Shown here one piece after another: positions 5,740 through 63,990 of a stretch of DNA of 64,000 nt. How positions within the stretch are numbered: the first letter of the stretch is position 1; the number at the start of each line of letters is the position of its first letter. The notes below the pieces were generated by a model. That model ran no database searches and was not told the origin of the DNA. It saw nothing but the letters and a program-made list of their open reading frames with translations. The stretch is from NCBI RefSeq assembly GCF_039555335.1, contig NC_092644.1:43448667-43512666 (forward strand), in the 5' to 3' direction. The stretch comes from Amphiura filiformis. Lineage: Eukaryota > Echinodermata > Ophiuroidea > Amphilepidida > Amphiuridae. The position numbers and the translations under genes are program-made.

Positions 5740-5943
5740 ATATCTGCAAGGTAGACATGGTAGTGCTACTGAGTATTCAATGAGGATGCTACAAGCCAAA
5801 ATTAAGAAACATGTCAACATCAAGCTTGAAAGAATTACATTAAAAAATTCATCTAAAAGCCCCAATGCAGTCGACGGATTCATAGAAATACAGCAGCCGC
5901 TAGCGTATATAGACAACATAGAAGAATTTCTCTTCTATTACAG
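5740..5943 (+). CDS. Possible exon, unknown family, fused to repeat
   Basis: A long pyrimidine tract ending in CTTTTAG at 5739 precedes an open frame. It reads YLQGRHGSATEYSMRMLQAK and then a Lys-rich and acidic stretch ending FLFYY. The frame runs directly into the first 247-bp repeat unit at 5944 and stops there (GISI, stop at 5957-5959). The abrupt junction suggests that the repeat truncated an older exon. No family is recognised. Confidence 0.25.
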
Positions 5944-13702: not shown

Positions 13703-14402
13703 TGCCACAAAGGCATGCAGTTGCTTGGCCACCATGGGTGTCATAGTCCATTAATCACTGTGGTCTTCCAGTATGTAAACCATTATTGCTCCCACAATAT
13801 GGTGGGCATGATATGACATCCTGACATTAATATGAAATATCATCAGAACACTTTTGTCATTTAACATTGTACTCGTATGGTATCGCTGCAAGATGACACC
13901 ATGTCACTAATATTATAACATTATTTTCAGGTGCCATTAATACAGTAATTTTAAAGCAGCCCACATACTTCCTCTCTTGGGTAGTCTTAGTTGACAACGG
14001 AATTGTCCCGAGTTGACAATGGAATGTAACATCAATAAGAAATGGTATAACATAAATTGAGTGCAAACGTCCTGAAATAACACATTTTATCAATGATATC
14101 AGATTTGATGCAATATTTCATCTGTGAGCAATAAACACATACCACATGGTAAAATGGACAGCTCTCCTAAACATCCTAGAGGTGTCATATATGGCTCGCC
14201 TAGAATTTTTAACATTTGAGCTTTACTCTCAAGTTAAAACCCATCTTTAAATCCTGGCAGCAACCTCCCAAAGCAACAAACAAATACCACATGTGGTAAA
14301 ACTGACAGCTCTTTTAATCATCTTCACATGTGTTATTTACAGCTCACCTACACTTTCATAACACTCAATCTTTGTGAACCTTTCTGTTAATCCTGGTGAA
14401 TG
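13703..14402 (-). other. EXOSC2 3' flank and probable 3' UTR
   Basis: This stretch lies directly downstream of the EXOSC2 stop on the minus strand. I did not find a clear AATAAA signal on that strand close to the stop, so the transcript end is unknown. Two related minus-strand segments (near 14140-14180 and 14275-14315, sharing ACCACATG.GGTA and GAGAGCTGTC-like words) suggest a local duplication. Confidence 0.45.
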
Positions 14403-23400: not shown

Positions 23401-26400
23401 TTGGTGACGATTGAATGAATTGAATTGTCTACTTGTATTACAAACGGTCACCGAATCTGAAAGTAACAGGAGTTGTACACACGTCCACTTGACAGTACAT
23501 GTAGATACATTGTAGATTTCTCGAATATTGTACCAAGTCATGAAGTCCAAGACGGCAAGAGCAAACCAAATGAAAAGTCAGTAAAATTAGGATTTAGGTC
23601 ATAGCAGCTGAATGCTATGCTGGGATCTTGTCTCGTATCATAATACATGGACATGGTAATTCATGAATTGGTATAAATATGTTGAATTTGTTTGAGTTTG
23701 ATTGACATTCGACATTCAGAACTTGTCATTGACCCGACAGAATTATCGAAAAATTGACATAATGGCCATCAGGATCAGCATTGTAAATTACGAATAAACA
23801 ATCATGACAATACCTGATGTAATGCAGCAGTGAGTTTATGGCTATTTAATACATGTATAAGCTTACCAATCATGTTACAGTACAATGGTTGTTCGGCGAA
23901 TCGCCATATTCGTGCACTGACAACACATGTGAAAGAGCATATCGCAGCGCACATGTCATGCACGCAGTCGAATTTTGCTCCAATTTTGAGACACTTTTTC
24001 TCTACAATCCGTATCTTGCTCATTAACGGTTTTACAATCAAAAGTTGCCTAAAATACTAATGAAACAAATGCATGCATGTAATTTAGGCTCACAGGGATA
24101 AGACAAGAAATATTCTAATCAACTTAGCGTAAACAATCGTAAAATACCACTTACCAGTACAGTCAAGGACGCCGCTGCTGGGGATGATATTTTCCTAACC
24201 GGATTAGCAAGGTTAATCCCAGATATATATTAAGAAAGTTCCTATAACTAGGTTTATTTTAAAACAAACCCGGTTTAAAACAATCAATCTGACCTTTTAG
24301 AATCGATTAGAGAAGTAAACCCGCTTATGACGCGCGAAAATATATCGATCTTGATACCCACGAGGGCTCAGTTCGTCAATGCGAAGTTCGCATCGTAAAA
24401 ACTTGACCTTTAACGGTCAAATCGCGAGTTGGACGTCGTACTACTACACAGCTTGACCAGCGATTGAGGTGCCGATGTGATGATGTGATTCAATTAGCCA
24501 ATCAAAACCCCACACCATAAACTGTGCCAAAATGACAGACCGCTGGAGTACTGTGCTGCTGTGCTGAAAACTATAATTATGGACAAATGGAGAATTCAGC
24601 ATTGATTTTAGCTGCCTGATAATTCAAGTGTACAGCATGAAATGAAAAGATAGACATTTAGAAAATATGTACGAAAGAGCTATATCAATGAAATTTTGTC
24701 AGTGCAATCACTGGTCCTTATGTACACTATGGTGCAAAAATGGTCTCATAAGTATGTTTACTCTTTTTACAGGCGACGCTAGATGCTAATAACCTGCTGC
24801 CCCAGTTACTGCGCATAAACTGCAAGATTGAGAAAATTGAGGCAAGCAGCGTTATTAAGATCCTGCATTTGAAGGGTTGCAGTGCCTAGAAAATCGATGA
24901 TGAAATTAAAGTTATTTTCGGTGGTGATTGTGAGATTGTCACTGTTGCTTTTTGGAAAATTAATTTTTATTTCATCACAGATTTTTTGGGCACTGTAACC
25001 CTTAAAATGGAACTTAATCATGCTACATGCCTCAATTTTCTCCATTTTGCTGGTTATGCGGTTACATAGGCAGGTACTGACATCTAGCGTCTGTAAAAAA
25101 AGTAAACATTCTTATGAGACCATTTTTGCACCATAGTGTACATTTAAGGACCAGTGATTGCACTGACAAAATTTCATTGATATAGCTCTTTCACTTCTGG
25201 GCGATTTCTAAAACTTTTTGATACCCCCTCGTACTTACGTCAAAATTGCTAGATGCCTCATACGTGTAGAGAACACTTGTATCATAAAGCAGCATTCTGT
25301 GTTCTGCTAAGCCAACAATACAGTTCCGTAATCTGGCTATCACCTCACGATCTGAGAAAGATACAGGCTGCAACAAACAATGACATTTATAATTTTAGTT
25401 AGTTGATAGTTGATTAAAAAAACTATTTATTTGATGGGGATTATTTACCAATTTGCTAACTGAGTTTATTGGAGAGAAAAATTAGAAGTGTTGTTTGGCG
25501 GTCACTTGCCGTATGAGAAAACACTGAAACAGGGTTGGATTTTACTATTTACTTTTTGTGATCAATCTGCAATGTTTAGGGTCCCTTTTTTACAACCTTC
25601 CCTGTTTTAGGGTCAATTCTGTGCTAAAATTGTGATTTTTTTCCCTCGATTATGTCCATTTGTAATAACTTGCCACATCTAGTTTGCAAATTCACCTGCC
25701 TGTTCAAAGTCATGATCATCACCCCACAAAATCAGGTCCAACACTAACTGACTGAAAAAAAAACACATCTGGTTGATCCAAATGGGGAAAAAAGGTTGGA
25801 AAGAAGGCTGATGTGTCAATTTTTTTGGTAATAGATGTGCTTTGTGGTTGTTTGTCACAACATCTAGCCATAAAAAGATCAAAATTGTTACAATTCTGAA
25901 ATTTGAGACACATTTTTGGTTCACCACATGACATGACTACATGTATGGAACCTGCGTGCTGTAAGATTGATGTGCATGTGATATAAGTCTATGATACCCC
26001 AGTACCGCCACTGCAATAAATGGGGCAGTTCAACTTACGCATCTTTTAACACCTAAAAGTATTAGGTTGTGAGTCAAAGTATATTGGGAAAATATACATA
26101 CCTGTAAATTTTGCACAAATCCACCTGCATGCTGATGTTCGTCATCTTTGCTGGCTGTAGGGTAGATCCACACATAGCCATTATTGCCTAGTATGATGCT
26201 AGCACCACATGGTAGGTTGTGGAAATGGGTCTTACACCTCTTGATGAGGGATGGAGATATTTTGATCATTACACCTTGACCAAGCTGGGAAAAAAGGTAA
26301 AACAAATTCAAATAATAAAACTAGAGCGGTTCTCGGGTTGCGCGGTTTTCGGCATACGCGGTTGGTGTGTAAGGTTGTTGGGTGATGGTATGGTAGTGGT

Positions 26401-32400: not shown

Positions 32401-35400
32401 CAAAATCGCACGCAATTTGGTTCGAAGTATCAAGTATGCCGAATTCTGCACCTATTTCACATGTGCGAGTCCAATGTTTTTCTCTCCATTAAGTTGATAC
32501 ATTACGTGAACAATGCAAATTATATGTGAAAAACTACTACTGTACTGTAAAATAAGCATTTTAATGAGTAACTGTACTTTTATGGCGTTCAAATGTTGTT
32601 CTTGTCATGAAACTTGACGTACGCTGTGTTCAGCGACTATATCTTACTTCTTCCGTGCTGCTTCGCTCAATCAATTATGCATGTTAATGACGTCTTTCGT
32701 ATACGATCAATGTAAAGAAAATAACACGTCATGGAAAATCGGACATTTGCATATGACGTGGTGTTTTGGCAGCGCTTCCGGGAGGATATTGTGTACATTG
32801 CACTGGATTCACGTAAACAAGCGCGAGCCTGCATCAAATGGAATTTTATCTTGCGACATAGTGTGCAAGTTTTGGTGATTTTTCTCGAACTATGATTATT
32901 TTATCATTCAATAAAAATATACTGTAAGTTGGAAGAAGCCCCACGCTTTTTATTTTAATCCCACGCTTTATATCAGTCCACGCTTTTACCCAAAAAGTTT
33001 AAACCCCCACTTTTTCACCAATTTTCAGAATTTCGAACCGCACGCATTATAAAGCGTGGACTGCCGAGTGTGAGTGGGGATGGGCACCCACGGCAAAATG
33101 CCATGGGTGCCGTGGGTTAATTAGAGGGCTGATATTTGCATCATTTACGTCATCCTGGTCATAGTAACAAACCGAGGACGTCCTCGTTTGGAGGTGTGTC
33201 CTCGTTTTATGGTGTGTATCCATATGGAGGTCCTTGTTTGGAGATATTTACAAACACACCCCCACTTTATTACTTTATACACACCCACACACAGTACAGA
33301 AAATATAATAAATACTGAATTTGCAAAAGAAACCAATTGTGTTGATGTTATTGGGTTACTTCAGGTGGTATGCATTTTATCTTAAATATTATTGTTTTGT
33401 TGTAGAGGGTACGTTACGTTAGGATTTATGTTTGTTTCTTTCTTTCTTTTTTCTTCACTTACATCTGCAATTCTTCCAACAACAACATCTCCCACTTCAC
33501 CATTGTACCTGATAAAGACAAAAGACAATTAGAGAAAAATAATTCAACTGACAAATAGATGTGTATCTTTGCAGTAAAGTCTACCACATATTCCTTTCAT
33601 CAATAATCAAACAAAGTGAGGCACCACATTCAATTTGGTCCTATAGAACTATCGGTGCCCGGTTAGGTACCGATGACTCTTAACATCACTCCCTGGAGAT
33701 ATAATAAATTGTATAAAGCATAATAATTAACAATTGCATAGTGTTATTGTTTTTCATTGAAATAAAAACAAATGCACTGTACAAATATTCAGGGTACGAT
33801 AAAAAGTGTTATCGCTACCTCTTCGGGCACCGATAGCGCTATAGGACCAAAAAAATGTTGTGCCTGACTTACTGGCTTTATTTTCATGAGAGCTGACAAT
33901 GATGAAGAGACACAAAAAATTGTCACTTGGATTCCTCTGTCTTCTTTCTCTTTGCATGCAACTATATTACCAATTTTGTTTTGTTTTCCTAAGGACATAT
34001 AATTCAACATATGGTAATACACTGGCAAAACTCTATGGTGTCATACTTCAGAATAATACATTTCTTGCCAAGATTAAATAATGTTGATTGAAAACTGAAA
34101 TCTCCAGAAGGAATGGCTTCAATGTGTCAGCACTGAAATAATTATATCATCAGATGAAGCCGGATGAGTATGCGCTTACCTTGTTTTGAGCGGTTTGACA
34201 CAGATGAGTTTATTGACTGTTTCAACCACACCAGCAACAGAAGCATGTAGGCTGTCATCTTCCATGTATGTTCCATGACCTCTACATTCGAAAAAGAGAG
34301 AGACAGAGAGATTACCAATTTGTTTTTAACAGACTTCAATGTGTAAATTACAATGTAAGTTGTCATTCGGGCCAGTGTCTGAAATAAGGAAAATATGGAG
34401 GTTGTCCTGAGGACAAAAAAACAATTTGGTTGTCCCCAAAATGTGTCACATTTTTAATGCAAAAAAATCAAATTTGTTTGATGTCTTTTGCTCTGGAAAA
34501 TTCGTAGCCACAAATTGGTAAACCTGTGCAGATCTTTTAAGCAATGGCACCACTGGGTAACTCAGTGAAATGGTTAATTAAAATTAAAATAATCAGAGAA
34601 CTGGACATGCTGAACAAGTGGACATCAAAGCATATAAATAATACGTGCTAGCAGTGGTCCAGATATCTCTCTTAAGGGGGTACTACACCCCTCGATAAAT
34701 TTGTGTCTATTTTTGCATTTTTCTCAAAAACTAATAACACAGTAGTAACAAAAGTTATGTATATAGGGGCAAGGAATCCAATTACTACCCTGGAATTTCA
34801 GTGACCCAAGACAAGCGGTTTGTTATTTATGATCAGAAATAAGGTACCGCTAGGATGTACCTCGTTTCCTATCATATATACTGAACCGCTTGTCTTGAGT
34901 CACTGAAATTTCAGTGTAGTAATTGGATTCCTTGCCCCAATAATAAACATAACTTTTGTTACCAGTGTGTAATTATTTTTTGAGAAAAATGCAAAGATAG
35001 TCACAAATTTACCACATGGGTGTAGTACCCCCTTAAGGATACAAGTTACAATCAACATGACAAGTCAAAACTTAGTGTCAAGTTTTATTTAAATTTATAA
35101 ATATATTGTATAAATCATAATTTTAGAAGTAAAATATAGTGGTTGTCCAGGGGATAAGTACATCTAGCTAAATATGGTTGTCCTCAAGTGATTTTTGGAC
35201 AAGAGGATAAGTGCTTATTTCGAACACTGATCCGGGCAACCTGAGTGAAGCCCAGATTTGCTGGCGGATGACCAGAAATTCACTGCAGGATATCCATCAG
35301 ACACACAATCAAATACTTTAAAAAAAAGTATCATTCATGATGGTTGATTTTGAAAAAAAATGTGTTTAAAATATGCAAAGTTGAAAATTATAATTCCAAA

Positions 35401-38400
35401 TATACGGATCACCAAATCTGCTGGATCACCTGATTTTTTTTCTGAAAATGTAAAACATAGTTTTATCAGGACTCCGTGTGGAGGGGTGTGTGCCCGGGGC
35501 CACGGGGGGGGTCACGGGGGGGGTCACGGGGGATCACGGGGGTCACTCCCATTGTGGCCTGTACACCATCCGCATTAATGAAAACGCGTAAAGGATAGTT
35601 TTTCGTGGGTAAGCACGATACACGCGTAACACGTATAGGCTTGAGGTGTCAAAAACATTAAATATGGTCATTTTCACGGTAAAGGGTGTAACTTTGGATT
35701 TTTAACATTTTGATCCGTAGTGTTCTAATAAAGCCACAGAATTCCATGATTTTTGGCTACATAAGTCATCTAGTTAGCAGCTACCTTGGGTAGCATAGTC
35801 ATCTTGGGGAGTTACTGCGTTCAGTTTTAGCAGGCTTAAATGTACTTAATATTGCCATTTTGAAAAACTATAAAAAACAGTAACATTTTTGTAAAACCCT
35901 GTGTTTTCTTCAGTTACTTCATGGATAATTTTTCTTATCCTGAAAGTATGGTCATATGTTCAGTAAACACTGCCACATTAGATTTAATTGTGAACAGCCC
36001 TGTATTTTTGAGAACCGGACTTCGATATTTGTCGTTTCGGAGGCTTCATTTTCCGTTAACAATTGTTAACAAACTTTGTGGGTATAGCTTTGGTTCATAA
36101 TTCTTGGTTATTTCTTCACTTCTTCATGATTCATAACTGTTGATATCTTAACTTGAAATGGGTAACAAAAATTAGTTGATTTGCAAGCTTTTAAGATTTT
36201 TATAAAATCTTGACTTCAAAGAGCCCTTTTTCCGTTAACTTTTTTGAAGCCTCCGAAACAAACTGTTCAGCAAGCTTGGGCAAATATAAATAAAAGAGCT
36301 CATCCAATCTATTTATCAAAATGTAGCAAAGTAGATCCTCAAGTCACTTGTTTTTAAATCGTGGAGATATATATCACCGTTTGAAAATGGGACCCAATAC
36401 AAACTTTCCGTTAACAATTGAAGCCTCCGAAACAAATGAAGCCTCCGAAACAACAATAACATTAATTATCATCTATGCATATGGTCATTTTCACGGTAAA
36501 GGGTGTAACTTTGGATTTTTAACATTTTGATCCGTAGTTTTCTAATAAAGCCACAGAATTCCATGATTTTTGGCCACATAAGTCATCTAGTTAGCAGCTA
36601 CCTTGGGTAGCATAATCATCTTCGGGAGTTACTGCGTTCAGTTTTAGCAGGCTTAAATGTACCTAATATTGCCATTTTGAAAAACTGTAAAAAACAGTAA
36701 CATTTTTGTAAAACCCTGTGTTTTCTTCAGTTAGTTCATGGATAATTTTTCTTATCCTGAAAGTACGGTCATATGTTCAGTAAACACTGCCACATTAGAT
36801 TTAATTGTGAACAGCCCTGTATTTTTGAGAACCGGACTTGATATTTGTCGTTTCGAGGCTTCATTTTCCGTTAACAATTGTTAACAAACTTTGTGGGTAT
36901 AGCTTTGGTTCATAATTCTTGGTTATTTCTTCACTTCTTCTTGATTCATAACAGTTGATACCTTAACTTGAAATGGGTAACAAAAATTAGTTGATTTGCA
37001 AGCTTTTAAAATTTTTATAAAATCTTGACTTCAAAGAGCCGATTTTCCGTTAACTTTTTGAAGCCTCGAAACAAACTGTTCAGCAAGCTTGGGCAAATAT
37101 AAATAAAAGAGCTCATCCAATCTATTTATCAAAATGTAGCAAAGTAGATCCTCAAGTCACTTGTTTTTAAATCATGGAGATATATATCACCGTTTGAAAA
37201 TGGGACCCAATACAAACTTTCCGTTAACAATTGAAGCCTCCAAACAAATGAAGCCTCTGAAACAACAGTAAACTTACTTATCATCTATGAATATCTAAAT
37301 TGGTATGTTCCATATTGATATCTGCATTGTAATTGTTGCATGATATGTGCAGAATGTCATAAATTTAAAAAAAAATTGATATTATGGTTAATGCTTGAAA
37401 AATATACTGATATCCAAGAAAGACCGTTTCGGAGGCTTCACATGCAAATAACACCATACTTAACAAATGGGTGAAAAAATTACCATGTTATAAATCTACA
37501 ATATCTGCCGCATAGAATCATTGATTCAATACACACAAGAAAATAACAGCTTAGATGATCCCAACAGTGTTGTTTTCAAAAAACTACTTCTGCAATGTTT
37601 AACCATTGTTAACATGAAGCCTCGAAACAAAAAAAATGACTTGCTGTGATAATTTAATTTTTGTCACAACTGAAATTCAATACTTAGAAGCAAAGCATGG
37701 AAATTGGTAATTGTGATATTTTTTACCTATTTTTTCATGTCAACTTGTAGTAGTTAGCCAAATATTTTACTTTTATGATCACCTGTGTTGTTAACTGAAG
37801 CCTCCGAAACACAAATCGCTTGAATTGCCAATTCTAAAAAAATAACTCCAATTTCTGTGAAACTTGGCTGGGAGGTTCCTTTCATCAAGTAGTATTTGTA
37901 CATGAAGTTATACATTTAAATTATTTTAGGAACCCAATTAAAACTTAAAAAATATGTTTAAGGTTGGGAAATTTCCATTGGAAATGACCCTTGATGTTAA
38001 AAATTTTCAAAATTGCAATTACAAACATAGCAAAACATGGTATAAAATTTAACTTATATCTGTTGACTTACTTTGGAATGGGATTTCACATGTATTCCAG
38101 CTTTCATGTCATAATTTTCTGAGCTTATGTAAAATACATTTTTTCTTAGATTTAAACCAAAATGTTATGGAAATGTCAATTTTTTTATCAGAAATCAAAA
38201 GGTTTAAGCCTTGAAACACTATTTTACTCGAATTTAAGTTGCTTCTATGCATGATTACAGTAAACAGAAACATATTTAAGTGGTTTGAAATTTTGACCCT
38301 AAAAATCAAAAGTTACACCCTTTACTGTGAAAATGACCATATCTAAATTGGTGTTTCATACTGATATCTGCATTGTAATTGTTACTTGATATGTGCAGAA

Positions 38401-41400
38401 TGTCATAAATTTAAAAAAATTTTGATATTATGGTTAATGTTTGAAAAATATACTGATACCCAAAAAGCCTGTTTCGGAGGCTTCACATGCAAAAAACACC
38501 ATACTTAACAAATGGGTAAAAAAGTTAACATGTTATAAATCTACAATATCTGCCACATAAAATCATTGATTCAATACACACAAGAAAATAACAGCTTAGA
38601 TGATCCCAACAGTGTTGTTTTCAAAAAAACTACTTCTGCAATGTTTAACCATTGTTAACATGAAGCCTCCAAAACAAAAAAAATGACTTGCTGTGATAAT
38701 TTAATTTTTGTCAAAACTGAAATTCAATACTTGGAAGCAAAGCATGAAAATTGGTAATTGTGATATTGTTTACCTATTTTTTCATGTCACCTTGCAGTAG
38801 TTAGCCAAATATTTTACTTTTATGATCACCTGTGTTGTTAACTGAAGCCTCCGAAACACAAATCGCTTGAATTGCCAATTCTAAAAAAATAACTCCAATT
38901 TCTGTGAAACTTGGCTGGGAGGTTCCTTTTATAAAGTAGTATTTGTACATGAAGTTAGACATTCAAATTATTTTAGGAACCCAATTAAAACTTAAAAAAT
39001 ATGTTTAAGGTTGGGAAATTTCCATTGTAAATGACACTTTATGTAAAAAAATTTCAAAACTGCAATTACATGTATAAACATAGCAAAACATGGTATAAAA
39101 TGTAACTTATATCTGTTGACTTACTTTGGAATGGATTTCACATGTATTCCAGCTTTCATGTCATAATTTTCTGAGCTTATGTAAAATACATTTTTCTTAG
39201 ATTTTAACCAAAATGTTATGGAAATGTCAAATTTTTATTAGAAATCAAAAGGTTTAAGCCTTGAAACATTATTTTACTGGAATTTAAGTTGCTTCTATGC
39301 ATGATTTCAGTAAACAGAAACATATTTAAGTGGTTTGAAATTTTGACCCTAAAAATCAAAAGTTACACCCTTTACTGTGAAAATGACCATATTGGAAAAA
39401 AGGGTAGCAAAATTGCAATTGCTAATCCGCGGAAATGAAATTTAGGGTATGAAATGGGAATTTGATGCAAGGAATAAAATCCCTGTTTTAGGGTATTGTA
39501 ATGATTTACTCAGGGTGTGATATGGATGATGCGTGATTTCCTGATAAATAACTCAGAGAACGTAAAACATGGAGCAAAACGACAATGGAAGTACAATCAC
39601 AAAATAACACGATTTATTAATAAAACACGAATCCTAACCATACAGAGACTGCCGCTTATATTGAAAGTCATGTCTCTAAACAAATGGTCAAGCCGTTTTT
39701 GCACAGAAACAAAGGTACGTGTTAACCCAACAAGCTCCAAATCATAAGTGAAGGTGCATCGGATGACTGGCCACCGCGCACGCTCATGGCACGCCCCTCT
39801 CACATGCCAGTCGACCCAGCAACAGCACCAACCAATCAGGGAACGGCGACGTAAAAGTGCGGCCAAAGTGCGTCGACATAGTCGCCAAGCATCTCTCCGT
39901 CCCCATTGCAGAAATGCGTCTACCTTCAGCTGCATAATGCATACCACAAATGCAGACGCATCCACAATGACGAGGAAGAGAAGTAATGGGACAATTAATA
40001 TGCAATTAGCGTCAATTAATTAACAAAAGGAATAATTTGGGTTTCATTTATGAAAGTCCGAAAATATGCAAACAATCAGGAATGTGCGCCTTGTGCAAAT
40101 ACAGCAAGTAAACAAGTCAACAAACTCTCCTGGGTCAATGTCCGTTCGTCAGTCGATGGCGATGCAAAATTGCATCGCCAAAGTCATTACATTTGATGAA
40201 TGTTTCATACACAAGAAAAAGGTAAAGCCTGAAAAAGATAGGGAGACACCCGTAGGCTCAGGGCATTTCACTCTCCCCACCTATAAAAAAAAGATTTGTA
40301 CTCAAATCTTGTACAATAAATCAAATTTCAAATTGATGCATATAATTTTGTGAAAACATGCATTGAAAATTTTGTTCTACAAAAACAAGTATTTACATTA
40401 AAAGCAATAATTTTGGTAGCTCACACAGTGGCCAAATGTAATTTAACATTTCATTTCAATCAAAAATACAGCGGCGGCAAAGCCCCGCAAATTTGCGTCT
40501 ACTGAATACTGGTGCTAAATTTGTTTATGTCATTCAATTCAGTTCAACATGTTCAAAAATCAAAGAAAGTGCATATTATCAAAACAAATGCCGAAAACAT
40601 TGCAAGGAAAACGGGCCTAAATTTGGGGTGCCTACAAATTTGGAAATTTCGGTTAAAATCTTAATAACTACGCCCTAAACTCAACCTAAAGGCCTAACGT
40701 TGAGTTCTGTCATGTCAGCGGTGCCTAAAGATTTGGATAGGTGTAACTCGCTAGCTGTTGTTCACGGAAAAACAGATGAAACTTTGGATACAATTTCACA
40801 AACATGACAAAATTTTATGTGGACGCATAAATGCGTCTACTCGGGAATGAAAACAACAACAGCCGGGCCTAAAGGGGAAAATACAACAATAATTAATTCA
40901 AAAGGGGAGCGAGTTACACTTACCCTACATACAACTTACACTACATGTCATAAATTAATTTCAATCTAGTAAAATCCAGTCCGAAGAGTTCAAAAACTTA
41001 TCGGTGATCGTTGTCGTTGAACGTGGCATGGCGATGCTAGCCTAGGGCTTCGACAGTCATGACAGTCAATGTTCGTTGCATGCATCGTGCATGGCTTGCA
41101 TGCAAATTCACTCAAGTTCATCGGTAGAAATACAAATCATTGTCCAAAGACGGTGAAAGATAGTTCAGCTTCAGGAGATTATATAAAAATTCCACGGCAC
41201 TTGGTCGATATATCCATAGAAAAACAACAAGCTGTATTTAAAAGTTCCCAGTCAATGAGTCTTGCAAGTTCAATGGCAATGTTGCGTCTCCATTCGTGTC
41301 CATGTACAATTAATAGCAAATGTTCAAAATCCAATTCAAGTCGCAGAAACCATCATCACAGCAGCGTCAGCATTTACCCTAGTCATTCAGGGTCTTGTAG

Positions 41401-44400
41401 CCTCGGTGCCCGCACTTTTGCGTCGACATTTGCGTCGAATTCTTCATCAAAATTTGTTGTTTTCACGGAGACATGCAGCTGTTGTCATCAGATGTTGCAA
41501 ACTCGCTCTCTGTGTCGCCAAATTTGGCGGTATAGGAGCTGTTCGCTTCCGGGGTGACATTACTGAAAATGCGTAAATTCGCATGTAGACAGCTTTTGGT
41601 GCCTTTTTCTATAAACTTCATAGAAAACTTCAAAACTTCTTGTGCGTTTTGTTTTTGCATGTTACTTGTAGGTTATTAAAACATCTTGATTTGGCTTCAA
41701 CTTTTCGATTTAAAAATTCACATCTCCTCGCTTGAATGGCTAGACAGACCAAACTTATTATGCATTATTAATCAATTAGATTTCTTTTAAGTTCTCTCAT
41801 AAAAACTCGACCAGCAAGTTCAGAACTTTTTAATTAAATCTGATGAACATACATTGCATGGCATCCAGAACATTTGCGCGCTTGCTCTGAAATGCCAATT
41901 TCAGCAATACCTTAAGGCTTTCAAGTTCATCATAACAATCATATAGGCCACAACCCATTTCACTACAAGTTGGTTGTCATCTTCAATCGTTTTCATTCAA
42001 TCAAGCAACTTTATCATGCGTTAAAGCCAACATCAATTTTCATATACATGCATAGACCTATACAGGCCTACAAATTATATTCCGACTTGTTTTCACGGAA
42101 TAATCAAACATCCACGCACATGAAGGGTCTTCAAAGACTTCAATTAAAACCCACAAAATGGTAATGGAGAAATTTTTATCTCCATTCTTCATGTTCTACA
42201 GCTGTCTTTCTTTATTTCTCACGGGAGGCTTATTTTAGGCCTTTTTATATGTCGAACCCGGTTTCTTGTAATTTTCATGAAATCGACTTTTTGGAGATTC
42301 ATTGTTTATGCCATTAAATCTTTATAGGCCTATTTAGACCTACTTTTGTAACGTGCAGGGCCGCAGGCTACTGTATAATGACACGAGTTTTACTATATTA
42401 ATTTATATGCGACAACTTCCTCTTCCTGTTCTGGAAGGGCATGGTCCACGAAGGATCCATTTTTGATTCATTGTCACAATTAGGCAAAAATGGCATAATG
42501 GCATCAATTATAAATTGATGTTCAAGCGGTAGTTCATCATTGTGATATCTACTTTTTGTAGGTTTTCTGGCATATAACTCGCACTTTTTACTAATGCGTT
42601 TCACATCTGCAAGCCATTTCACCCACCAATACCGCTTGCCAATAATTTTCATTATTTCTGGGTACCTTCAGAGTGTTCTTGGTGTTTATTTGTATCTTCA
42701 AACACCTTCATGCGCAGATGCGGTGGAACTACAAGTTTCATTGAAACTTTGTCTCCACAGTCTGAGTCGCAGCGTTTGGATAGAACACCTTTGGCAATTG
42801 CCAATTGGTCCCAAAAGGACCAATATGTTTTCAGAGTTAGATTTTCTTGTGAAATGTCTTCCCATTTCGGGCGATCACAATCTAACTCTTTCCAAGACAT
42901 AATTTGGTTCAGGACTTGGTCTTCCATCTGTTCCTTCCTCAGGTCTTTAGCAGACCATTGATAGAACTTTTTACTGATATCTTTGTCCTGGTCTTGACAA
43001 TTTTGACTGTTGCACATGAATTCATCATGTTTCACATGATTTACATAAATGGATTTTTCAGTGTCATCCTTTTCTTTTGGTTCCTCTGCAGTTGGAGTTG
43101 GAGATGTCGTCGAGTTAATTTATAGGCCTACTCACTTTGCAGTGTCTTTGGAAGTGACCAACTTCTCCACATTTAAAACAGATCAGATCTTTTCTGTGTC
43201 TTTTGTTTTCATAGTTACCATGGTTACGGCGTTGGTTTTCGTAACTTTGGTCTTTATTTTGCACAGACTCGATCTTCTGGAGAATTACCATGAGAATTTC
43301 CAGCAGGGACTGTAAGACTATTTGGTCCTTCGACATGAGCGAGTCAACTTGTTCAGATGACTCCAATTTGTCCGACTGTAGGTCTAGGCCTACTTCAAGA
43401 TTGCTCACAGATCTGACGTACTGACATGACCTCTGATTTTCGGCCAATTTGAAGGCCTCGCACTCGATAGCAACATCAAGTGCTTCATCCAGGGTCTTAG
43501 GCCTGGTTTGAAATATGCTCCATCTCATATCAGGGTCCAATGCGTCTAAGAACTGATCTTTAGCCAGAATGTCTTGCATACTCCTAGGTGCATTTGGGTA
43601 TGCATATTTGGTTAATCTCACGCAAATTTTGTGCCAGCTCTGGAAGTGACTCGCCCTTTTCACGGGTTCTGTTCTTTAATAGCGTCTTATTCAACTCTGC
43701 TTTATTTTCAGAGTTGAAACGCTTTTCCAGCTTTTCCACGCTGGATAGTGATACCTGGAATGTTCTTCCAAATCACTCAGAACCGCAAGAGCAGCCCCTC
43801 TAAGGCTGGTAGCCAAAAATGCTGCTTTGACATCATCAGGCCAAGCATTTAATTCACACACAATTTCAAAGTGTGCCAAATAATCCTGTAGCGGTGGTTT
43901 TTTTTTTGGTTTTTTATTTTTTTTTTTATGTCAAGACATATCAAGGCATTAACAGCTGTTATCGTTGCAATAAAGCTGACGGGTTGGCGCCTAGATAGCT
44001 ATTAACCTCCTTTTTGAAACTGTTCCTTTTCGCAATTCCAGGAATGTGAGGCGGGCGTGCATTCCCTGTGCGGGCTGGAGATGGAATGAAAGACCGCTCA
44101 TGACTAACAAGGTTAGATCTTGGAATTTGAACTGCAAGGTCGTGAGATCTAACTGAACGGCGAAGGCGAGGGTCAGTCTGGAGCCGTCATATTCTGATGG
44201 CTTCATCAATGGTTTTGTCATTGATGTGCACCTCGTCTCATCAGGACTTACAGGCAACATCGTACATGTTTTGTACGGGTACGGCCTTCTTGTTTTACAC
44301 AAGGGACTTTGTTGTGTGCTCCCTTCTAAATCGGAGAGCCTCGGCAGTTTCGTCGGTTCACTTTCAGACTCAAAGTCAAAATCAAAATAAGCTGTCCCTG

Positions 44401-47400
44401 TAGGTCTAGTAGGCCTACTACCACAAGCGTAGTCGCTCAGATATCTGAGGGGAGACACTATTCACGGCTTTTTATTTCTTGCAGCCGGACTTTGGTCTGT
44501 TCCAGAAAATCACGCATACTGTAAAAGTCAATATTTTCGCGAGAAGATATTTTCGCGATTTTGAAAATTGCGCGCGAATTAAATTTCGCGGTTTTGATAT
44601 TGATACAATAGAAACCTAATGCAAAAGGTTATTTTCGCGAGTATTTATTTTCGCGATTTTATGTCCGCTCGCGAAATTCGCGAAAATAAAAACCTCGCGA
44701 AAATTTCTACTTTTACAGTATTTAATTCATCCTTACCTCTGGTTATACCAGTGGGTTCACTAACGATTTCAGAAGTCATATCGAAATCGCACCGCTGCTC
44801 ACCAATGTAATGATTTACTCAGGGTGTGATATGGATGATGCGTGATTTCCTGATAAATAACTCAGAGAACGTAAAACATGGAGCAAAACGACAATGGAAG
44901 TACAATCACAAAATAACACGATTTATTAATAAAACACGAATCCTAACCATACAGAGACTGCCGCTAAATATTGAAAGTCATGTCTCTAAACAAATGGTCA
45001 AGCCGTTTTTGCACAGAAACAAAGGTACGTGTTAACCCAACAAGCTCCAAATCATAAGTGAAGGTGCATCGGATGACTGGCCCACGCTATGCACGCTCAT
45101 GGCACGCCCTCTCACATGCCAGTCGACCCAGCAACAGCACCAACCAATCAGGAACGGCGACGTAAAAGTGCGGCGCAAAAGTGCGTCGACATAGTCGCCG
45201 CATCTCTCCGTCCCCATTGCAGAAATGCGTCTACCTTCCGCTGCATAATGCATACCACAAATGCAGACGCATCCACAATGACGAGGAAGAGAAGTAATGG
45301 GACAATTAATATGCAATTAGCGTCAATTAATTAACAAAAGGAATAATTTGGGTTTCATTTATGAAAGTCCGAAAATACGCAAACAATCAGGAATGTGCGC
45401 CTTGTGCAAATACAGCAAGTAAACAAGTCAACAAACTCTCCTGGGTCAAAGTCCGTTCGTCAGTCGATGGCGATGCAAAATTGCATCGCCAAAGTCATTA
45501 CATTTGATGAATGTTTCATACACAAGAAAAAGGTAAAGCCTGAAAAAGATAGGGAGACACCCGTAGGCTCAGGGCATTTCAGTATTGTTTTAGCCAAGGG
45601 TTAAATCCTTGTTTAGGGTGCTTTTCAAAAGTTGATTATCGCGGATGATGTACAGGCCACAATGGCAGTGAACCCCCCCCTGGGGTATGTGCCCCTCACT
45701 AAGGGGCTGTGCAATAATTATGAGCCCTGGGGGAGGGTAAAATTGGGGGGGGGGCAAGCAATTTTTGGCAAGCCGAGAGGGGGGGCAAGCGATTTTTGGC
45801 GCACATTCATGGGGCGCCTTTTTAATAAAACGCTCTAAAATGGCTTAGGGAAGCGATGCGGAAACGCTTAAATATGCAAATTTTCCTGCTCGATCGCTTC
45901 ATAACATACATCTAGACCATTTAAAGTTTGGAATTTGGGATCCCAAAAATTTGGCATGTTCAAAGGTAGTCAGGCTCACATCACACACTATAGGTGGCGC
46001 TATTCGTCCATAGGGAAGTGGAATGCAGACGATGGTGGACTACATTATTCACTGTGGCAACAGCCAATATCGTAAACAAAACAGACAATATGACGGCAAC
46101 ACTGCCTGGACATTGGACGCCCCGTGTTGAGTTGTGTTTTTAGCTCTATTGGCCAAAAAAAAAAAAAAAAATGCACAAAATATATTTTTCAGTGAATGTA
46201 TAAATTTTCACATAAAAATAAATATTTTTGGATTCAAAATAAATGTGAAGAAAAAAAAATTATAGCCGGGAGTGAGCGGGACTCGATCTCGGGACCCTAT
46301 GCACCGCAGGCGAGACCCGTTACCGCTAGACCAAGCGAACCGCGATACACAATGGGGGAAATTTTAGGTATATATCATAAACATACAGTGCGTTATTCAT
46401 ACAAAACATTCAAAAAACAGTACTTACAATGAGGTTCACTGGCGAACCTCAACGGATTTAGACTGATAAAATAGTGCTTTAAAATAACATACGTACAGTT
46501 TTGGAATAATTTGAGACATTTTTGTGTTTACGTGTAAAACCAATGACAACGTCAAAATTCAGCCAATCTTGGCCGGCCCCCCCTGGTGGAATGTGCCTGT
46601 ACGGTCCAAAAATGGCTTTACTGCACCGTCACATACAGTAGTGTACATTGTACATGTGCCTGCTGTCACAATTTCACGCACAAAATTTTGGACAATTTGG
46701 TGACACTATTTTTGTCGGTAACTTCAAAAGTATATGCACTAGAAACATGATTGACCCCTTATTGTGTAGGTAATTTGATTCTCTTTCAAATGAAAGAACT
46801 TTCAGCTAAAAATATTGAACTTCAAAATTTTATGAACATACCTATCAAAGGGGGGGGGGGCAAAGAATTTTTGGCGGGCGAGAGGGGGGGGCAAGCGATT
46901 TTGGCAGGCCGAGGGGGCAAGCGATTTTTGGCGGCGGTTTGGAAATTTTAAATCATTTGCAATGTCAATGACAATGTTTGATAAGCCCTTTCGCAAATTC
47001 AGATCATGGTGCATCATGGGTAATATTTGCCGATAAAATTGGAGATAAACATGATGAGGCTACTGTACATTTTCAATGGGGTGAACTTTGACGTTTGCAT
47101 AAAAATGTTTTGTACTGGAATTTCGCTGACAGTTCGGTCTTCATTCCTTCACAGTATTTGTATTTCACAGGAAATATTAACATATGTAGGAATGAATAAA
47201 AAATGTTTTACAGAAATATGTTTTTGAAGGAAGTGCAAAGTTCGCCACCATTGAAAATGCACTGCAGCCTCCTCGTGTTTATCTCTCGTGGAAGATTGTG
47301 TGACGATGTCTGAGCATGCGCAGTTGCAATGATCTGAATTTGCGAAAGGGCTTATTCTCACAAATCAACTTCTCATTCAATTCTGTAAACTACAATACAA

Positions 47401-55270: not shown

Positions 55271-56526
55271 TACATTGTATTTGATTAAATATATACCGTA
55301 TTTGTAGTGTCTCTGGACCTAGACCTAAATGCTAGGATCCATGGAGCTATTATAAGATGGAGAGGAAATATATTACGTAACGCATTGAAACCTTGTGCCG
55401 ATTTGAAATCTGACAAGCTATTCATCGAAAGGTACCTTTTGTTTGGGACAAAGGGCTTCCACCATTAAATCGGTAAGCTGACCCGACAGTGTATTAACGC
55501 TTTACCTAGGAGGCTACTGTCAATAAGTGATCAAATGCAAGTCGCGTGAAAGCGCTTAATGGAATGAAAAGTACCTATTGTTATACATAAACCCAAGGGT
55601 GTGATTGAGTAGCCGTAAGCACAAAAGGCACACATTAGCCGCTAATGCATAGTTCGTTGTCACCCCACTTCATAAAAATAAATTGAATGCGCCTGCTGAA
55701 TGATTACACATCATGGCTGCCATGTCTATAATGGTATTAAATAGCTACGTCCCGGGAGCTACGATACATGTAACATATAATAAGTATACCGGTATAGGCC
55801 TATATAAAAGTTGTTTTACAAATTGAGATTTTATTTTATTTTATTTTAAGAAGGAGAATGTCATAATCAGTGGCGTACTGAAGGGGGCAGCTCTTCTGTG
55901 AGAGGTCTTGGGAGGGATGAGGTTGAAGGAGGGATATGAAGAATGAGAGGGACTGGAGGAAGAGAGAAAGAGGAAGAAATAAAGAGAAATAAATAAATAG
56001 ACGTAAATAAATAGAAAGGTAAGGAAAATGATAGGAATGAGAGGGGACAAAACGTAAGAGGGGGTGGAGAAGGGAAGGGCGATAAGAAGAGGGAGTGATA
56101 CTATAGCAAGTACAGAGAAAGGAAAAGAAATGAATGACAAATAAATGTAGGCCTTATAATAATAATTATTATAGAAACTAAACACAGCCCCTCCCCCGCC
56201 CACACACACACACACATAGGCCTAACACTATAACAGCACTATAGGCAGCCATTCGATGATGCCAATGCCTTTATGCGTTACGTATTTAAAACGCCCAGTC
56301 AGATGTATTTTACACCTGCCAAGCACAAGTCACCTAATTTCAAAATTGGACGTTGAATGTACACTCTCATGAATATTGATTGGCAACATTTTCCAATATG
56401 TCAGCGCTCAAATCGGACACAATAGAACAATAGACCATTCAGTGCGTTGCTAGGATCATTCATGGTTGACCTAAAAAAAAATTGAATTTTGCACATTGTT
56501 TTGTGTTTTTAAGGGGGTATATGTGT
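55271..56526. other. No gene; purine-rich tract and CA repeat
   Basis: 55900-56120 is almost pure purine on the plus strand (GAGAGGG, AGGAAGAGAGAAAGAGG). The 124-codon frame opposite is low-complexity and not a gene. A short (CA)n lies at 56200-56216. CAGTGGCGTACTGAAGG at 55869 looks like a lone hAT-type end. Confidence 0.55.
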
Positions 56527-57617
56527 GTAGGTACTCTGTGATCCATGGATATCAGGGTTAGGATGTGGGTACATGTACAAAGTCATAAGGTTGCAATGTG
56601 CATCAATGTTACAACCGTTAGAATGTTACAACTGTTACAACATTAAATGTTATGAAACATTAAAACAATGAATGATATTTCATCATTTTATCCAGGTTTG
56701 TTTAAATAATAAGAGGAACTATGACAATCATAAGACAAAACCTTACTGTGATTATTTGGTTCATTTTGTAAGTTATATGTCATTTTGACATTGAGCACAG
56801 AAATATCCCACTTTTGTGCGTCCAGAGATCTCCTGAACTATATATTTACATAGAAGTGACAAGTGAGTATTTCATAATTTTCATAACTTTATTACATGTA
56901 TGACACCTTGGATAATATGGAAAAAAAATGAAATATTGTTAATTTTTTAGACATGACATTTTGTCTTAAATTGTAACGGTTGTAACATTGACGCACGTTA
57001 CAACCGTTACGACATTGTAACCCATCTCCTAGCCATGGTACAATGTATGGATCAAACAGTGTCAGTACCTGGTTTATTATGAAGCAATCAATTTTTCTAT
57101 CACAAGTATCGAACTGCAAACCCAAAGTGTCTATATTTCAGCAAAACGTCTAGAATTGGTTTAGCAGTAACAATGAGGGATTAACTACTAAATATAGACA
57201 CAAATTTAGACCACTATATGGTCAGTATACCTCAAATGTAGTCTGATAAATAGACTCAATATTAGACACTAAGCCCAAAACGGCATTGGGTGCATTTTAC
57301 ACATGGGTGATTCTGGAATAAGAAGCAAACATGGGTTCTTATAAATCAGTGAAAAGAAGCAATTTTCCAGTTCAGCGAATTGCTAACAAACATTAAGCAT
57401 GGATTTCAATGGGGTACATGTATGTTTAAATAGTATTATTTGAACAGTAATTTTACATATGTAGTTGTGCAACAATCAACATTGAATAATAGTTAGTGAT
57501 CTTCAGAAAAAGTCGACAACAAAACATTTGGGCTGGTAAATTGGGAGCTAGCAGTCCATGAATGTGTCTATAATTGTGTCCATAATTTTGTCCAGTGTCA
57601 GTTTAACAAAAGCTTAA

Positions 57618-58279
57618 GGGCTGGGGTATGAGCGTTTGGACAGTATTTATTTTGGGACATTAGAGCACATCAGACATATCAATTGCATTCTGAATATATG
57701 AAGAATGTCATTCCGATATCAAATAATTTTGATTTTTTGAAATTCGCAATTTAATACACATTTTATGGCAAATCATTAAAAATTGATATTTTTGACATTT
57801 AACAGTACTTGAAGTAAACTTTATAAATCTGATGATTTATACTTAAAGTGTGTGTAGGTGGGATGAAAAGTCACGACGATCAATTGAAAATTTTGACCTT
57901 TCAGATTAAAGATATGGATTTTTTCCCAAAACACAAAAAAAAAATTAGGGTCTTTTTGGGGGAAAATCCATATCTTCAATATGAAAGGTCAAAATTTTCA
58001 ATTGACCATCGGCTTTTCCTTCCTGCTACATACACTTTAAGAATATATCATTAGATTTATATAATTTACTTCGAGGACTGTTATATATCAAAAATTTGAA
58101 AATATCAAATTTTTATAAAATGTCATAAAATTTGTATTATATTGTGATTTAAAAAAAAAAAATTATTTGATATCAGAAAGACATGCTTCGTATTCAGAAT
58201 GCAATTCGATAGGTCTGAGGTGCTCTCATGTCCCACAAAAAATACTGTCGAAAGGCAATAAACGCTCATTTTGGATCCC
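57618..58279. mobile_element. Full-length hairpin MITE, TTAA target
   Basis: Flanked by TTAA (57614-57617, 58280-58283). The outer ends (GGGCTGGGGTATGAGCG against its diverged inverse) and the whole interior are inverted, with symmetry centre near 57945. Examples are GATATCAAATAATTTTGA, ACTTAAAGTGTGTGTAGG and AAAATTTTGACCTTTCA. It could fold into a stem of over 300 bp. Confidence 0.88.
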
Positions 58280-58347
58280 TTAATACCCTATTCATATCTA
58301 ATCTCCAATACTAGACGATTTGCTGAATTATAGACGTTTTGGGTTTG

Positions 58348-58694
58348 CACCCCTCAATAAATTTGTGACTATTTTTGCATTTTTCTCAAAAACTAATAAC
58401 ACCCTGGTAACAAAAGTTATGTATATAGGGGCAAGGAATCCAATTACTACACTGGAATTTCAGTGACCCAAGACAAGCGGTTCGATACTTGTGATAGAAA
58501 ATGAGGTACTGCTAGGATGTACCTCATTTCCTATCATATTTACTGAACCGCTTGTCTTGATTCACTGAAATTTCAGTGTAGTAATTGGATTCCTTGCCCC
58601 AATAATATACATAACTTTTGTTATCAGTGTGTTATTAATTTTTGAGAAAAATGCAAAAATAGTAACAAATTTACCACAGGAGTGTAGTACCCCC
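58348..58694. mobile_element. GTACTACACCCC fold-back MITE, copy 2
   Basis: It matches 34676-35032 along its length. The right end GTAGTACCCCC is followed by TTAA. The left terminus is truncated (starts near GCACCCCTCAATAAA). It is nested in the giant inverted repeat. Confidence 0.88.
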
Positions 58695-59469
58695 TTAATA
58701 TGAAAATTGATACATAGTTTTCATGCCATACTCTATTAATGATATCAAAATGCATTGAACATATTTGTTGTATTGACAGTTCTTGACGCACAAGAGGACG
58801 AAAAATGAATAAAAGACTGAACGTTGAAAAATTGACTGTGTATGGTCTTTGGTTTAATTTTTTTAGGTTTTAAACACCATTGATTGCTTCATAATAAACC
58901 AGGTACTGACACTGTTTGATCCATACATTGTACCATGGCTAAGAGATGGTTACAATGTCAGTAACGGTTGTAACGCAAGGTCAATGTTACAACCGTTACA
59001 ATTTAAGACAAAATGACATAAAAAATTAACAATATTTCATTTTTTTTCCATATTATCCAAGGTGTCATACATGTAATAAAGTTATGAAAATTATGAAATA
59101 CTCACTTGTCACTTCTATGTAAATATATAGTTCAGGAGATATCTGGACGCACAAAAGTGGGATATTTCTGTGCGTCAATGTCAAAATGACAATGATCCTC
59201 TTATTATTTAAACAACCTGGATAAAATGATGAAATATCATTCATTGTTAATGCATCATAACATTTAAATGTTGTAACATTTTAACGGTTGTAACATTGAC
59301 GCACATTGCAACCTTATGACTTTGTACATGTACCCACATCCTAACCCTGATATCCATGGATCACAGAGTACCTACAGTCCTACACTTGGTTTGTATTGTA
59401 TAGGAATCAATAATGTTAACCTAGGAAATCCATAGAACAGACCATACAAAAAATCCAAAAAATCAATTG

Positions 59470-59825
59470 AAGAGGGTACTACACCCCTGCCTAATTCTGT
59501 GCCTATTTTTGCATTTTTCTCTAAAATTATAGGGCATTGGTGACAAGTAAGATATGTATATTATAGGGACAAAGACTACAACTACTGCACTGGAAATTTT
59601 ATTTCAACACAGACAGCAGTTGTGGAGTTACAGTCAAAAATGAGGGAAAACCAATATTTGATCAATAAATCAATAACTACTTGCCTTGAGTTGCTGAATT
59701 TTCAGTGCAGTAGTTGTAGTCATTGCCCCTATAATACATGTATCTTACTTGTCACCAATGCGCTATAATTTTTGAGACAAATGCAAAAATAGACACAAAA
59801 TTGACCAGGGGTGTAGTACCCCCTT
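59470..59825. mobile_element. GTACTACACCCC fold-back MITE, diverged copy 3
   Basis: AGAGGGTACTACACCCCTG and CAGGGGTGTAGTACCCCCTT bound a hairpin whose interior differs from copies 1 and 2 (ACTACTGCACTGGAAA, inverse TTTTCAGTGCAGTAGT). It represents a separate subfamily. Confidence 0.88.
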
Positions 59826-59987
59826 ACATCAAAATAATCTGATGAAGAATTAAAAAAATCTGATTTTTTTGAAAAAATTTTTTAAATAAAAAAAATCAAC
59901 AACCCTGTTTTGAACTTGATGGACATGACGGTTGGTTGGACTCGCATCTTTTGTCGCCTACCAACCTGCTGCCATGTCAAATAAATG

Positions 59988-61092: not shown

Positions 61093-61569
61093 TTATTTAT
61101 GGATACTGACAGGTGAATTTGAGATGTAGTAATTTAGGATCTCGGATTTGAAATATTTGAAAATTTGAACGCTCCTAACGTCAGCAGGGAGGTTGTTCCA
61201 GGAGTTGTACACACGGTTAAAAAATGTCTGCTTGAAAATATTGGTATTGCACTTATTTGGGATAATTGTAGGTGAGTCAGAAGATCTTAAAGAAATGGAT
61301 TCAGTGCCACGGAAATTCACTCTATCTTGCAATGAGATAAAAGACATGCCATGTAAACCCTTGAAGAGCAGGATGTTATCTTTAAACTTGCGACGGTCCT
61401 CAAGACTAGAAAGGTTGAGTTCTGTAAGACGCTCTTCATAGGGGGCAGAACTTTGAAGGATAAATCTGGTAGCACGCCTTTGAACTCTTTCAATGGCAGT
61501 AATGAGACCCTTTGTAGATGGATTCCAAATTTCTGACCCGTATTCCAAAATAGGTCTGACATGAGCCAA
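61093..61569 (-). pseudogene. LINE ORF2 C-terminal domain
   Basis: AHVRPILEYGSEIWNPSTKG and VQRRATRFIL form the conserved thumb/C-terminal region of CR1-like ORF2. SWNNLPADVRSVQIFKYFKS and ISNSPVSIHK follow before the stop at 61093. It is joined to the RT by a frameshift near 61595. Confidence 0.85.
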
Positions 61570-61574
61570 ATAAA

Positions 61575-62715
61575 GAATTTTACGAGTAAGGGGTCTTTTA
61601 CCTCATTGCAAGTGTGACGGATCAAGCCCAAAATACGGTTAGCTTTGCAAATCATATGATTAATATGCATTTTCCAATTCAAATTATTAGTGACCATGAT
61701 ACCAAGATCGCTTTTGACTAGTAACAGAAAGTAAATTGTGGTTACCAAGTTTATAATCAACAGGATCAACATGGTGACGTTTGCAGTTTTGACCTGAAGC
61801 ACCACACATTTTTTGGCATTAAAATCAATATCCCATGTTTTACTCCAGTTATTCAGAGCATTGAGGTCATTTTGCAGAGCCACTTGATCATCAATGGAAG
61901 AAATTGTTCTATATAATTTTGCATCATCCATAAAGAGAGCAATGCGTGTCTCAGGTGAGACACAGGATGGCATGTCATTGATGAAGATAACAAAAAGTAA
62001 GGGCCCTAGGATAGAGAGCCTGTGGGACACCGGATGTGACTGGTAATAAGTCAGAATGAGCACCATTGATGACCACTCTCTGCAATCTGCCCTCCAAATA
62101 ATTGTTGAACCAGGCAAGGAGTGAGCCACCGATGCCTGCATACCTGAGCTTCTCAATAAGCTTGGAATGGTTGACCGAGTCAAATGCCTTTGAGAAGTCC
62201 AGGTACACAACATCAGTGTCACACTCCCTGTCATAGATAGAACCAAGATACTGGGTAAAATCAACAAGTTGTGTAACACAAGACCGATTGGGCATAAAGC
62301 CATGTTGCCCATCGGAAATAATTGGCTGTAAAAGGGCAATATTTTCTTGTGGATGCAGCGTTCCCAGAACTTTGGAAACCAGGCTGAGCAGTGATATTGG
62401 ACGGTAGTTTTCAACGCAAGTGTTGTCCCCTTTCTTAAACACTGGTGTGACATTTGCCAACTTCCAGGCGGATGGAACCTTGCCTTGCTGTAGAGAAGCA
62501 TTAAAGATGACAGTCAGGGAGTGCGACAGCTCAAAGGCACACTCGCGCAACAACTTGCCTGGAATACCGTCCGGACCACATGCCTTGCCTGGATCCAATG
62601 CTCTCAGAACGTCAAAGATGTCTGTAGCAGAAAATAAAATAGAACACAAACTATTGGTATCATTATTATTATCAGATATACAAGCAATGTCAAAGGAATC
62701 TTTGTTTCTAAACAC
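61575..62715 (-). pseudogene. LINE reverse transcriptase domain, one internal frameshift
   Basis: GPDGIPGKLLRECA and NYRPISLLSLVSKVL open the domain. YLDFSKAFDSVNHSKLIEKL carries the first catalytic Asp. The frame breaks within the GVPQ...ILGPLLF block near 62020. The next frame has FMDDAKLY, the catalytic Asp pair; FADD is the usual form, so Met replaces Ala. LNNWSKTWDIDFNAKKC closes it. It copies LINE RNA into DNA at the target site. Confidence 0.88.
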
Positions 62716-62995
62716 ACTGTGGAAATATTTGTTGAAGAGACTGGCTTGTTCAGCTGGAATGCTGGTGGTGGAATTATTGTATGTAATTGAATGGGGAATT
62801 TTACCAGGGTTTTAATCTTGTGGAATGACCAAAACCTCTTTGGGTTGTCTCTAAGTGAGTCTCTAACTTCAAAGAGAAAATCGGCACGCTTTCTCTTGAT
62901 GAGGGATTTGGATTGCTTACGCAAAGATCGAAATTTATCCCAATAAGTGCTGTTGCCAGTTTTTTTAAACTTAACCCAAGCACGTTCTTTTTTCT

Positions 62996-63990
62996 TCACA
63001 ATATTAATAATTTCTGAATCAATCCAAGGAGCAGAGTTTTGGATTTTGCAGTGCACCTTAGGAATAAACGTATCAACAATGTCACACAAACTAGTGTTCC
63101 AATTGTCCCATAAAACATCAATGTCATTGTCGTCCAAGTTCCAAGAGTGAGAAAGGAGAGCATTTTTTGGGCCAGACCAGTCGGCTCGTTTGAAATTGTA
63201 AACGGTGCGCTTTGGTTGCTTGACACGTTTGCACAAGATGGGAATTGAAAAGGTAATGGCAGTATGATCCGAGCCAATATTATCACACCCTTCTCTAAGA
63301 TCATCAACAAGAGTAGGATCCCACAGCAAAACAAGATCAAGGATGTTACCGTGCCATCTTTATTAAACCTAGTTGGGAAATTCACCATCTGGTGCAAATA
63401 GCAAGCATTAGCAACATCACAAAATTCTCTTTCAAGTACTCTACTGTCATTAGTATATTCGCTTAGTGTCCAATTAATGCGTGGCAAATTAAAATCACCT
63501 ACTATAATTTTATTTTTAATTTGATGAGATTGAATAGAGTCAATAAAAGAACTCAGCATATCCATGTCCTCCATGCCAGCATTGGTGTACACAGGTGGAC
63601 GATACACAACGGAGAGAAGAACACTTTTCCCTGGCTGTGGATTTACTTCAACAACACACGACTCAGGATACGTTTCTAACTCAACATGGCGATGAGACGC
63701 GCAAGTCCATTTTCACTGCAATCAACACCCCACCACCACGAGTACCGGTACGATCATTTCGGTACACAACATAACCAGAAGGAGAATAAAGCTGTCAGGA
63801 ATAGTTGAGTTCAACCAAGATTCAGTAATTAAGATAACATCGTAATCAAGGCTGTATACAATGGCTTGAAGATCAACGGTTTTGTTCTTGGTACTACGAG
63901 TATTCAAATAAAAGCAAGTCATATTGTTGTTACTACTGTCAGCAACAGAACTAATGGAGCTGTTGGAAACTGACAGAAAGGATCCTGAAG
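62996..63990 (-). pseudogene. LINE endonuclease domain in three frames
   Basis: TCFYLNTRSTKNKTVDLQAI and DYDVILITESWLN form the N-terminal block (the catalytic Glu is in TESWLN). After a shift near 63770 and a new frame from 63607, MYRPPVYTNAG and IIVGDFNLPRINW follow (the DFN metal site). After another shift near 63360, NIGSDHTAITFSI holds the SDH active-site His. All key residues are present though no single frame is open. It nicks target DNA for insertion. Confidence 0.85.

Follow-up and report, generated by a model that had tools for sequence, protein, structure and literature searches.

Non-autonomous elements of the Tc1/mariner type have a TA target and terminal inverted repeats (TIRs) and depend on a transposase supplied in trans. 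In CACTA (En/Spm) and hAT (Ac/Ds) elements, subterminal repeats are bound by the transposase and the target duplication is 3 or 8 bp. Elements nested in their own kind are well known in plants. TA target duplications by Tc1/mariner elements are described in one article (PMC7913693). The region at 35662–39392 of the 64-kb stretch of DNA analyzed here (the window, to which all coordinates refer) is very probably a TIR DNA element of the non-autonomous kind, ∼1.86 kb long, that has entered a second copy of itself at a TA and duplicated that TA. The motif TGAAGCCTCCGAAAC, or a near form of it, occurs 14 times in this region, seven times in each element copy.

The element is like non-autonomous Tc1/mariner elements in its TA flanks at both insertions, its inverted ends of ∼40 bp, and in having no recognized transposase frame. 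A TA target duplication is seen at both the inner and the outer copy, with ATAT as a possible alternative, and the TIR arms of 43–44 nt are 95% complementary. As far as we are aware, the element is unlike typical miniature inverted-repeat transposable elements (MITEs) in being longer (1.86 kb) and in having a central array of seven repeated sites, and its ends (TGGTC...) match no named family known to us. As with nested MITEs, the insertion site is the normal target within another member of the family, and the nesting itself is no different. With CACTA and hAT elements it shares a short CpG-containing motif repeated in both orientations; however, their repeats crowd the ends, whereas the present sites are central, ∼370 bp or more from either end, and their target duplication is 3 or 8 bp rather than TA (or ATAT). 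Membership of either group was rejected, as TA, or at most ATAT, is duplicated and the sites, at 370–1333 of 1865, are not subterminal.

Nested insertion of the element

The region contains direct repeats, with the left halves ∼817 bp apart and the right halves ∼1047 bp apart, together with four TIR ends (35662, 36479, 38342, and 39392), in agreement with the initial annotation of this DNA as a TIR element with repeated left and right halves. The order along the region is L-A-[L-A′-B-R]-B′-R, where the bracketed part is an uninterrupted inner copy of 1858 bp (TGGTC...GACCA). With the inner copy removed, the outer copy is 1865 bp long, including one TA, and the two can be aligned end to end with 1786 of 1871 columns identical. 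The terminal 40 bases at either end are the same in the inner and outer copies, down to both of the mismatches between the left and right TIRs.

At the left junction, from A to the inner L, ...ctatgcaTA is directly followed by TGGTC, with the TA at 36480, and at the right junction, from the inner R to B, GACCA is directly followed by TAtctaaattgg, with the TA at 38340. The equivalent site in the intact inner copy reads ctatgaaTAtctaaattgg, with an unbroken TA at 37292. In this empty-site comparison, the single TA of the intact site has become two TAs around the inner insertion. A TA likewise borders the outer copy at each end (35663 and 39390).

The breakpoint shared by the two halves is the TA at position 816–817 of 1865 in the outer copy. 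Because both breakpoints are this same TA, the arrangement is ascribed to one self-insertion and not to two duplications; insertion of L-A-B-R into L-A-B-R between A and B gives the order L-A-L-A′-B-R-B′-R. The repeats do read in that order under the initial proposal as well, in which the left and right halves were duplicated in tandem as two independent events. We consider this very improbable, as two events would be needed, with the outer breakpoints at TIR ends and the inner breakpoints at the same TA by coincidence, and the TA on each side would be left unexplained. Independent duplication of the halves was therefore rejected: their breakpoints are not unrelated but a common TA, and one self-insertion accounts for all four junctions at once. 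The nesting is in itself ordinary, yet the unfilled site within the inner copy acts as an empty-site control from which the ends and the target of the element can be fixed.

Two points count against a firm description of the locus as a TA-targeting element of the Tc1/mariner type. The insertion context is ATAT at both sites, so the target could equally be the 4-bp ATAT, the two duplications being indistinguishable because both sites read ATAT; this context is found at 10.7% of the TAs in the window and at 13.2% of the 152 TAs in the inner copy. Moreover, the superfamily assignment is drawn from the target and the TIRs only, with no further genomic copy or autonomous partner seen. No other TIR was found in the rest of the window at up to 3 mismatches, and blastn of the element against the rest of the window gave nothing better than 46 columns at an E value of 0.029.

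Proposed mobilization of the element

A total of 48 stop-to-stop frames of at least 35 amino acids overlap the element, the longest being 78 amino acids. No Pfam family was found at an E value of 0.1 in the 10 of these 48 frames that were scanned, and no transposase was recognized, consistent with the earlier claim that a transposase frame is absent. Most likely, the element was moved by a Tc1/mariner-type, TA-targeting transposase acting in trans from another place in the genome. Such a transposase would recognize the ∼40-bp ends of the element, which would insert at a TA inside another copy and duplicate that TA. The active source element may retain binding sites for a sequence-specific DNA-binding protein, both the protein and any role of the spacing being postulated here, and after a copy has landed its sites would decay along with the remaining sequence.

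Layout of the seven sites

The 14 occurrences of the motif comprise eight exact copies, two with one substitution, and four with one base lost, so that the motif or a near form is present at all 14 of the positions first listed, in both orientations. The seven sites follow the same order and orientation in both copies (−,+,+,+,−,+,+) and are located at 370, 582, 756, 774, 947, 1138, and 1320 of the outer copy, where the array spans 370–1333 of 1865. At up to 3 mismatches the motif has 11 matches in the window, all of them within the element, as compared with 2.51 expected, and none of 100 shuffles reached 11; this count leaves out three of the four one-base-shortened forms. The seven sites of any one copy are nearly identical to each other, and their flanks cannot be aligned beyond the sites and short adjoining stretches (the longest self-match being 60 columns at 77%). 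At five of the seven sites (1, 2, 3, 6, and 7) GTTAAC lies 0–6 bp upstream of TGAAG. This hexamer is found seven times in the 1865-bp outer copy, as compared with six times in the 59 kb of the window outside 35001–40000.

The sites are spaced at ∼189 bp. When periods of 60–500 were scanned, the best period was 189 (R = 0.96, all seven sites), with P = 0.006 for uniform placement and 0.0047 with the ends fixed; with the doublet counted as one site, the corresponding values were 0.014 and 0.011. The variation of the gaps is low with the doublet as one site, a merger made after the data had been seen (P = 4.5e-5, and 2.5e-5 in a test that combined positions of both copies). This near-regular array of seven sites is the only unusual part of the element, and we know of no described kind of TIR element with such a central array. 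Should other copies share it, the array would make this an uncommon example of internal protein sites being kept far from the ends of a non-coding transposon.

Putative binding sites and their divergence between the copies

With slightly less than even confidence, we regard the seven sites as putative binding sites for a sequence-specific DNA-binding protein. The initial annotation of a TIR element that is non-coding and holds a repeated motif is borne out here; it had further proposed that a transposase or a host factor binds the motif. The central position of the sites (370–1333 of 1865) weakens the first of these; the sites may instead be bound by a host factor. By analogy with En/Spm and Ac, in which the binding sites are subterminal, host-factor binding is more likely than transposase binding at sites so far from the ends.

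Several observations weigh against the assignment of the sites as binding sites. No GTTAAC accompanies site 4 or site 5, and of the seven in the outer copy, the one at 1000 adjoins no site. A test on the smallest gap (no gap below 171 bp) gave only P = 0.02. In the comparison of the inner with the outer copy, the motif has six events in 98 bp and the surroundings 68 in 1767 (P = 0.28), revealing no extra conservation. The claim that the motif is held while its surroundings drift is thus true among the seven sites of one copy and fails between the copies, where the motif is altered at least as often as neighboring bases, an outcome named beforehand as evidence against it. This lack of protection weighs against selection on these two copies. 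Consequently, both look like landed, decaying copies, and the function of the sites, if any, would be exercised in the source element.

Five of the seven site pairs differ between the copies, and all six events fall within CCG (four one-base losses and two substitutions). The 68 events outside the motif include 59 substitutions and seven one-base indels. For these counts site 2 was realigned by eye, the aligner having given a 2-bp gap and five false substitutions; without realignment the figures are 10/98 and 68/1767 (P = 0.006), with the motif again the less conserved. One-base indels are enriched in the motif (4/98 versus 7/1767, P = 0.002), and substitutions do not differ (2/98 versus 59/1767, P = 0.77). 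The one-base losses at CCG are found at four of the seven inner sites (36850, 37060, 37233, and 37616) and at none of the seven outer sites. CpG decay could be the cause of the substitutions in the motif. As a side question, compatible with the other explanations, the losses in the four inner sites could be errors of sequencing or of the consensus, perhaps with a link to CpG methylation, rather than biology, which we rate as somewhat less likely than not. In favor of such errors, all six motif differences fall on CCG, four of them being one-base losses, and a further one-base loss at a CpG is found at 359 of the outer copy.

The main rival to protein binding is that the sites are alike through recent copying of a stretch of 20–60 bp in an ancestral element, by slippage or by template switching in gap repair. 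Sites 3 and 4 form an 18-bp tandem doublet, and self-matches around the sites, GTTAAC included, extend to 34 bases at 88% and 60 columns at 77%. Among 40 flank comparisons (20 site pairs, upstream and downstream), four exceed z = 2.5, all of them upstream, where GTTAAC is located, and the decay of the sites between the copies would also be in keeping with such an origin. However, the sites are found in both orientations with a spacing of ∼189 bp, and GTTAAC stands anywhere from 0 to 6 bp away from TGAAG, which would not be expected of a block copied recently. On balance, recent copying appears rather unlikely.

The sites could also be what is still recognizable of a decayed array of ∼190-bp repeats, or of a doubled three-site block (−,+,+), that once made up the middle of the element. 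The order of orientations (−,+,+(+),−,+,+) is suggestive of such a block, the pairs 1–5 and 2–6 have the top upstream local scores (z = 5.1 and 5.7), and an alignment of the two halves of the middle gave z = 5.96 against shuffles preserving base composition only. Nevertheless, the reverse-complement control is nearly equal (584 versus 620), and once the motifs were masked the halves were no better than shuffles (z = 0.94, P = 0.16), with z = 0.22 (P = 0.40) after masking of both the motifs and GTTAAC. A decayed internal block, unsupported after motif masking, was rejected as improbable. A more specific form of the binding-site assignment, and likewise a doubtful one, is that the seven sites are a built-in array with nucleosome-like spacing (∼189 bp), which would be recognized by a DNA-binding protein, either from the host or derived from the element, that sets the chromatin state or aids mobility.

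Searches for relatives

The TIR pattern was found in no stretch of the viral contigs or of the prokaryotic genome contigs, a eukaryotic relative being expected in neither, and GTTAAC-N{0,8}-TGAAGCCTCCGAAAC was found in none of either collection. No match to the inner copy was obtained by blastn against phages and plasmids at 1e-5. The 14-mer alone is present in at least 120 viral stretches, with one match each among the 80 stretches listed; these are taken as chance, given the 14-mer and the size of the collection. Four motif strings and four TIR strings were found in no paper of the literature collection searched, a weak negative, as consensus sequences of elements are mostly kept in databases rather than papers. 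The accessible parts of the literature on nested or internally repeated elements contain nothing on the motif.

Table 1. Parts of the nested element and sites of the motif
Feature	Position	Strand
TA, left target-site copy of outer element (context ATAT)	35663..35664	
Outer element, left part L-A, through the TA entered by the inner copy	35665..36481	+
Inner uninterrupted copy L-A′-B-R, 1858 bp, TGGTC...GACCA	36482..38339	+
TA, left target duplication of inner insertion	36480..36481	
TA, right target duplication of inner insertion	38340..38341	
Equivalent unbroken TA inside inner copy (empty-site comparison)	37292..37293	
Outer element, right part B′-R	38342..39389	+
TA, right target-site copy of outer element	39390..39391	
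Inverted-repeat arm, outer left, 44 nt including flanking TA, 95% complementary to outer right arm	35661..35704	+
Inverted-repeat arm, outer right, 44 nt	39350..39393	-
Inverted-repeat arm, inner left, 43 nt, 95% complementary	36479..36521	+
Inverted-repeat arm, inner right, 43 nt	38300..38342	-
Outer site 1, exact	36034..36047	-
Outer site 2, exact	36246..36259	+
Outer site 3, exact	36420..36433	+
Outer site 4, exact; 18-bp doublet with outer site 3	36438..36451	+
Outer site 5, exact	38471..38484	-
Outer site 6, one substitution, CCG to CCA	38662..38675	+
Outer site 7, exact	38844..38857	+
Inner site 1, minus one base	36850..36862	-
Inner site 2, minus one base	37060..37072	+
Inner site 3, minus one base	37233..37245	+
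Inner site 4, one substitution	37250..37263	+
Inner site 5, exact	37426..37439	-
Inner site 6, minus one base	37616..37628	+
Inner site 7, exact	37797..37810	+

Surroundings in the window

Pfam searches with 10 of the 30 longer frames of the window identified a reverse transcriptase, an endonuclease-reverse transcriptase domain, and a CCHC zinc knuckle, and from these retroelement domains the window looks eukaryotic. No RNA families or tRNAs were found at or above threshold in the window. The stretch 39497–45581 reads as a long terminal repeat retrotransposon, with direct repeats of ∼775 bp (39497–40270 and 44806–45581, 97.8% identical) that start with TGTAATG and end with TTTCA, are bordered on each outer side by GTAT, and enclose a frame with a CCHC zinc knuckle.

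A family of foldback (hairpin) repeats of ∼350 bp has copies at 34671–35037, 58348–58698, and 59470–59826, two of which are 93% alike, with the third at 71–72%. Long inverted repeats at 56517–59385 (arms at ∼56526–57092 and 58879–59376, 85% alike overall and 93–99% in blocks) have a hairpin repeat nested within them, and a near-palindrome of ∼520 bp at 24673–25192 has perfect inverted ends of 48 bp. Tandem arrays are found at 12116–13703 (263-bp unit, six copies, 97% matches) and at 5940–6618 (247-bp unit, 2.8 copies).

Remains of a non-LTR retrotransposon, with reverse transcriptase and endonuclease parts, extend over several frames at 61093–63712. Together with the retroelement domains, the relatives of the reverse transcriptase make an invertebrate animal likely as the source of the DNA. 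Among the best 120 of 1666 relatives of the reverse transcriptase, the four nearest by identity are in ENA contigs (82–87% over 40–62% of the query), eight are from the octocoral Paramuricea clavata (45–50% identity), and two are labeled as Cytophagales bacterium assemblies (44–45% identity).

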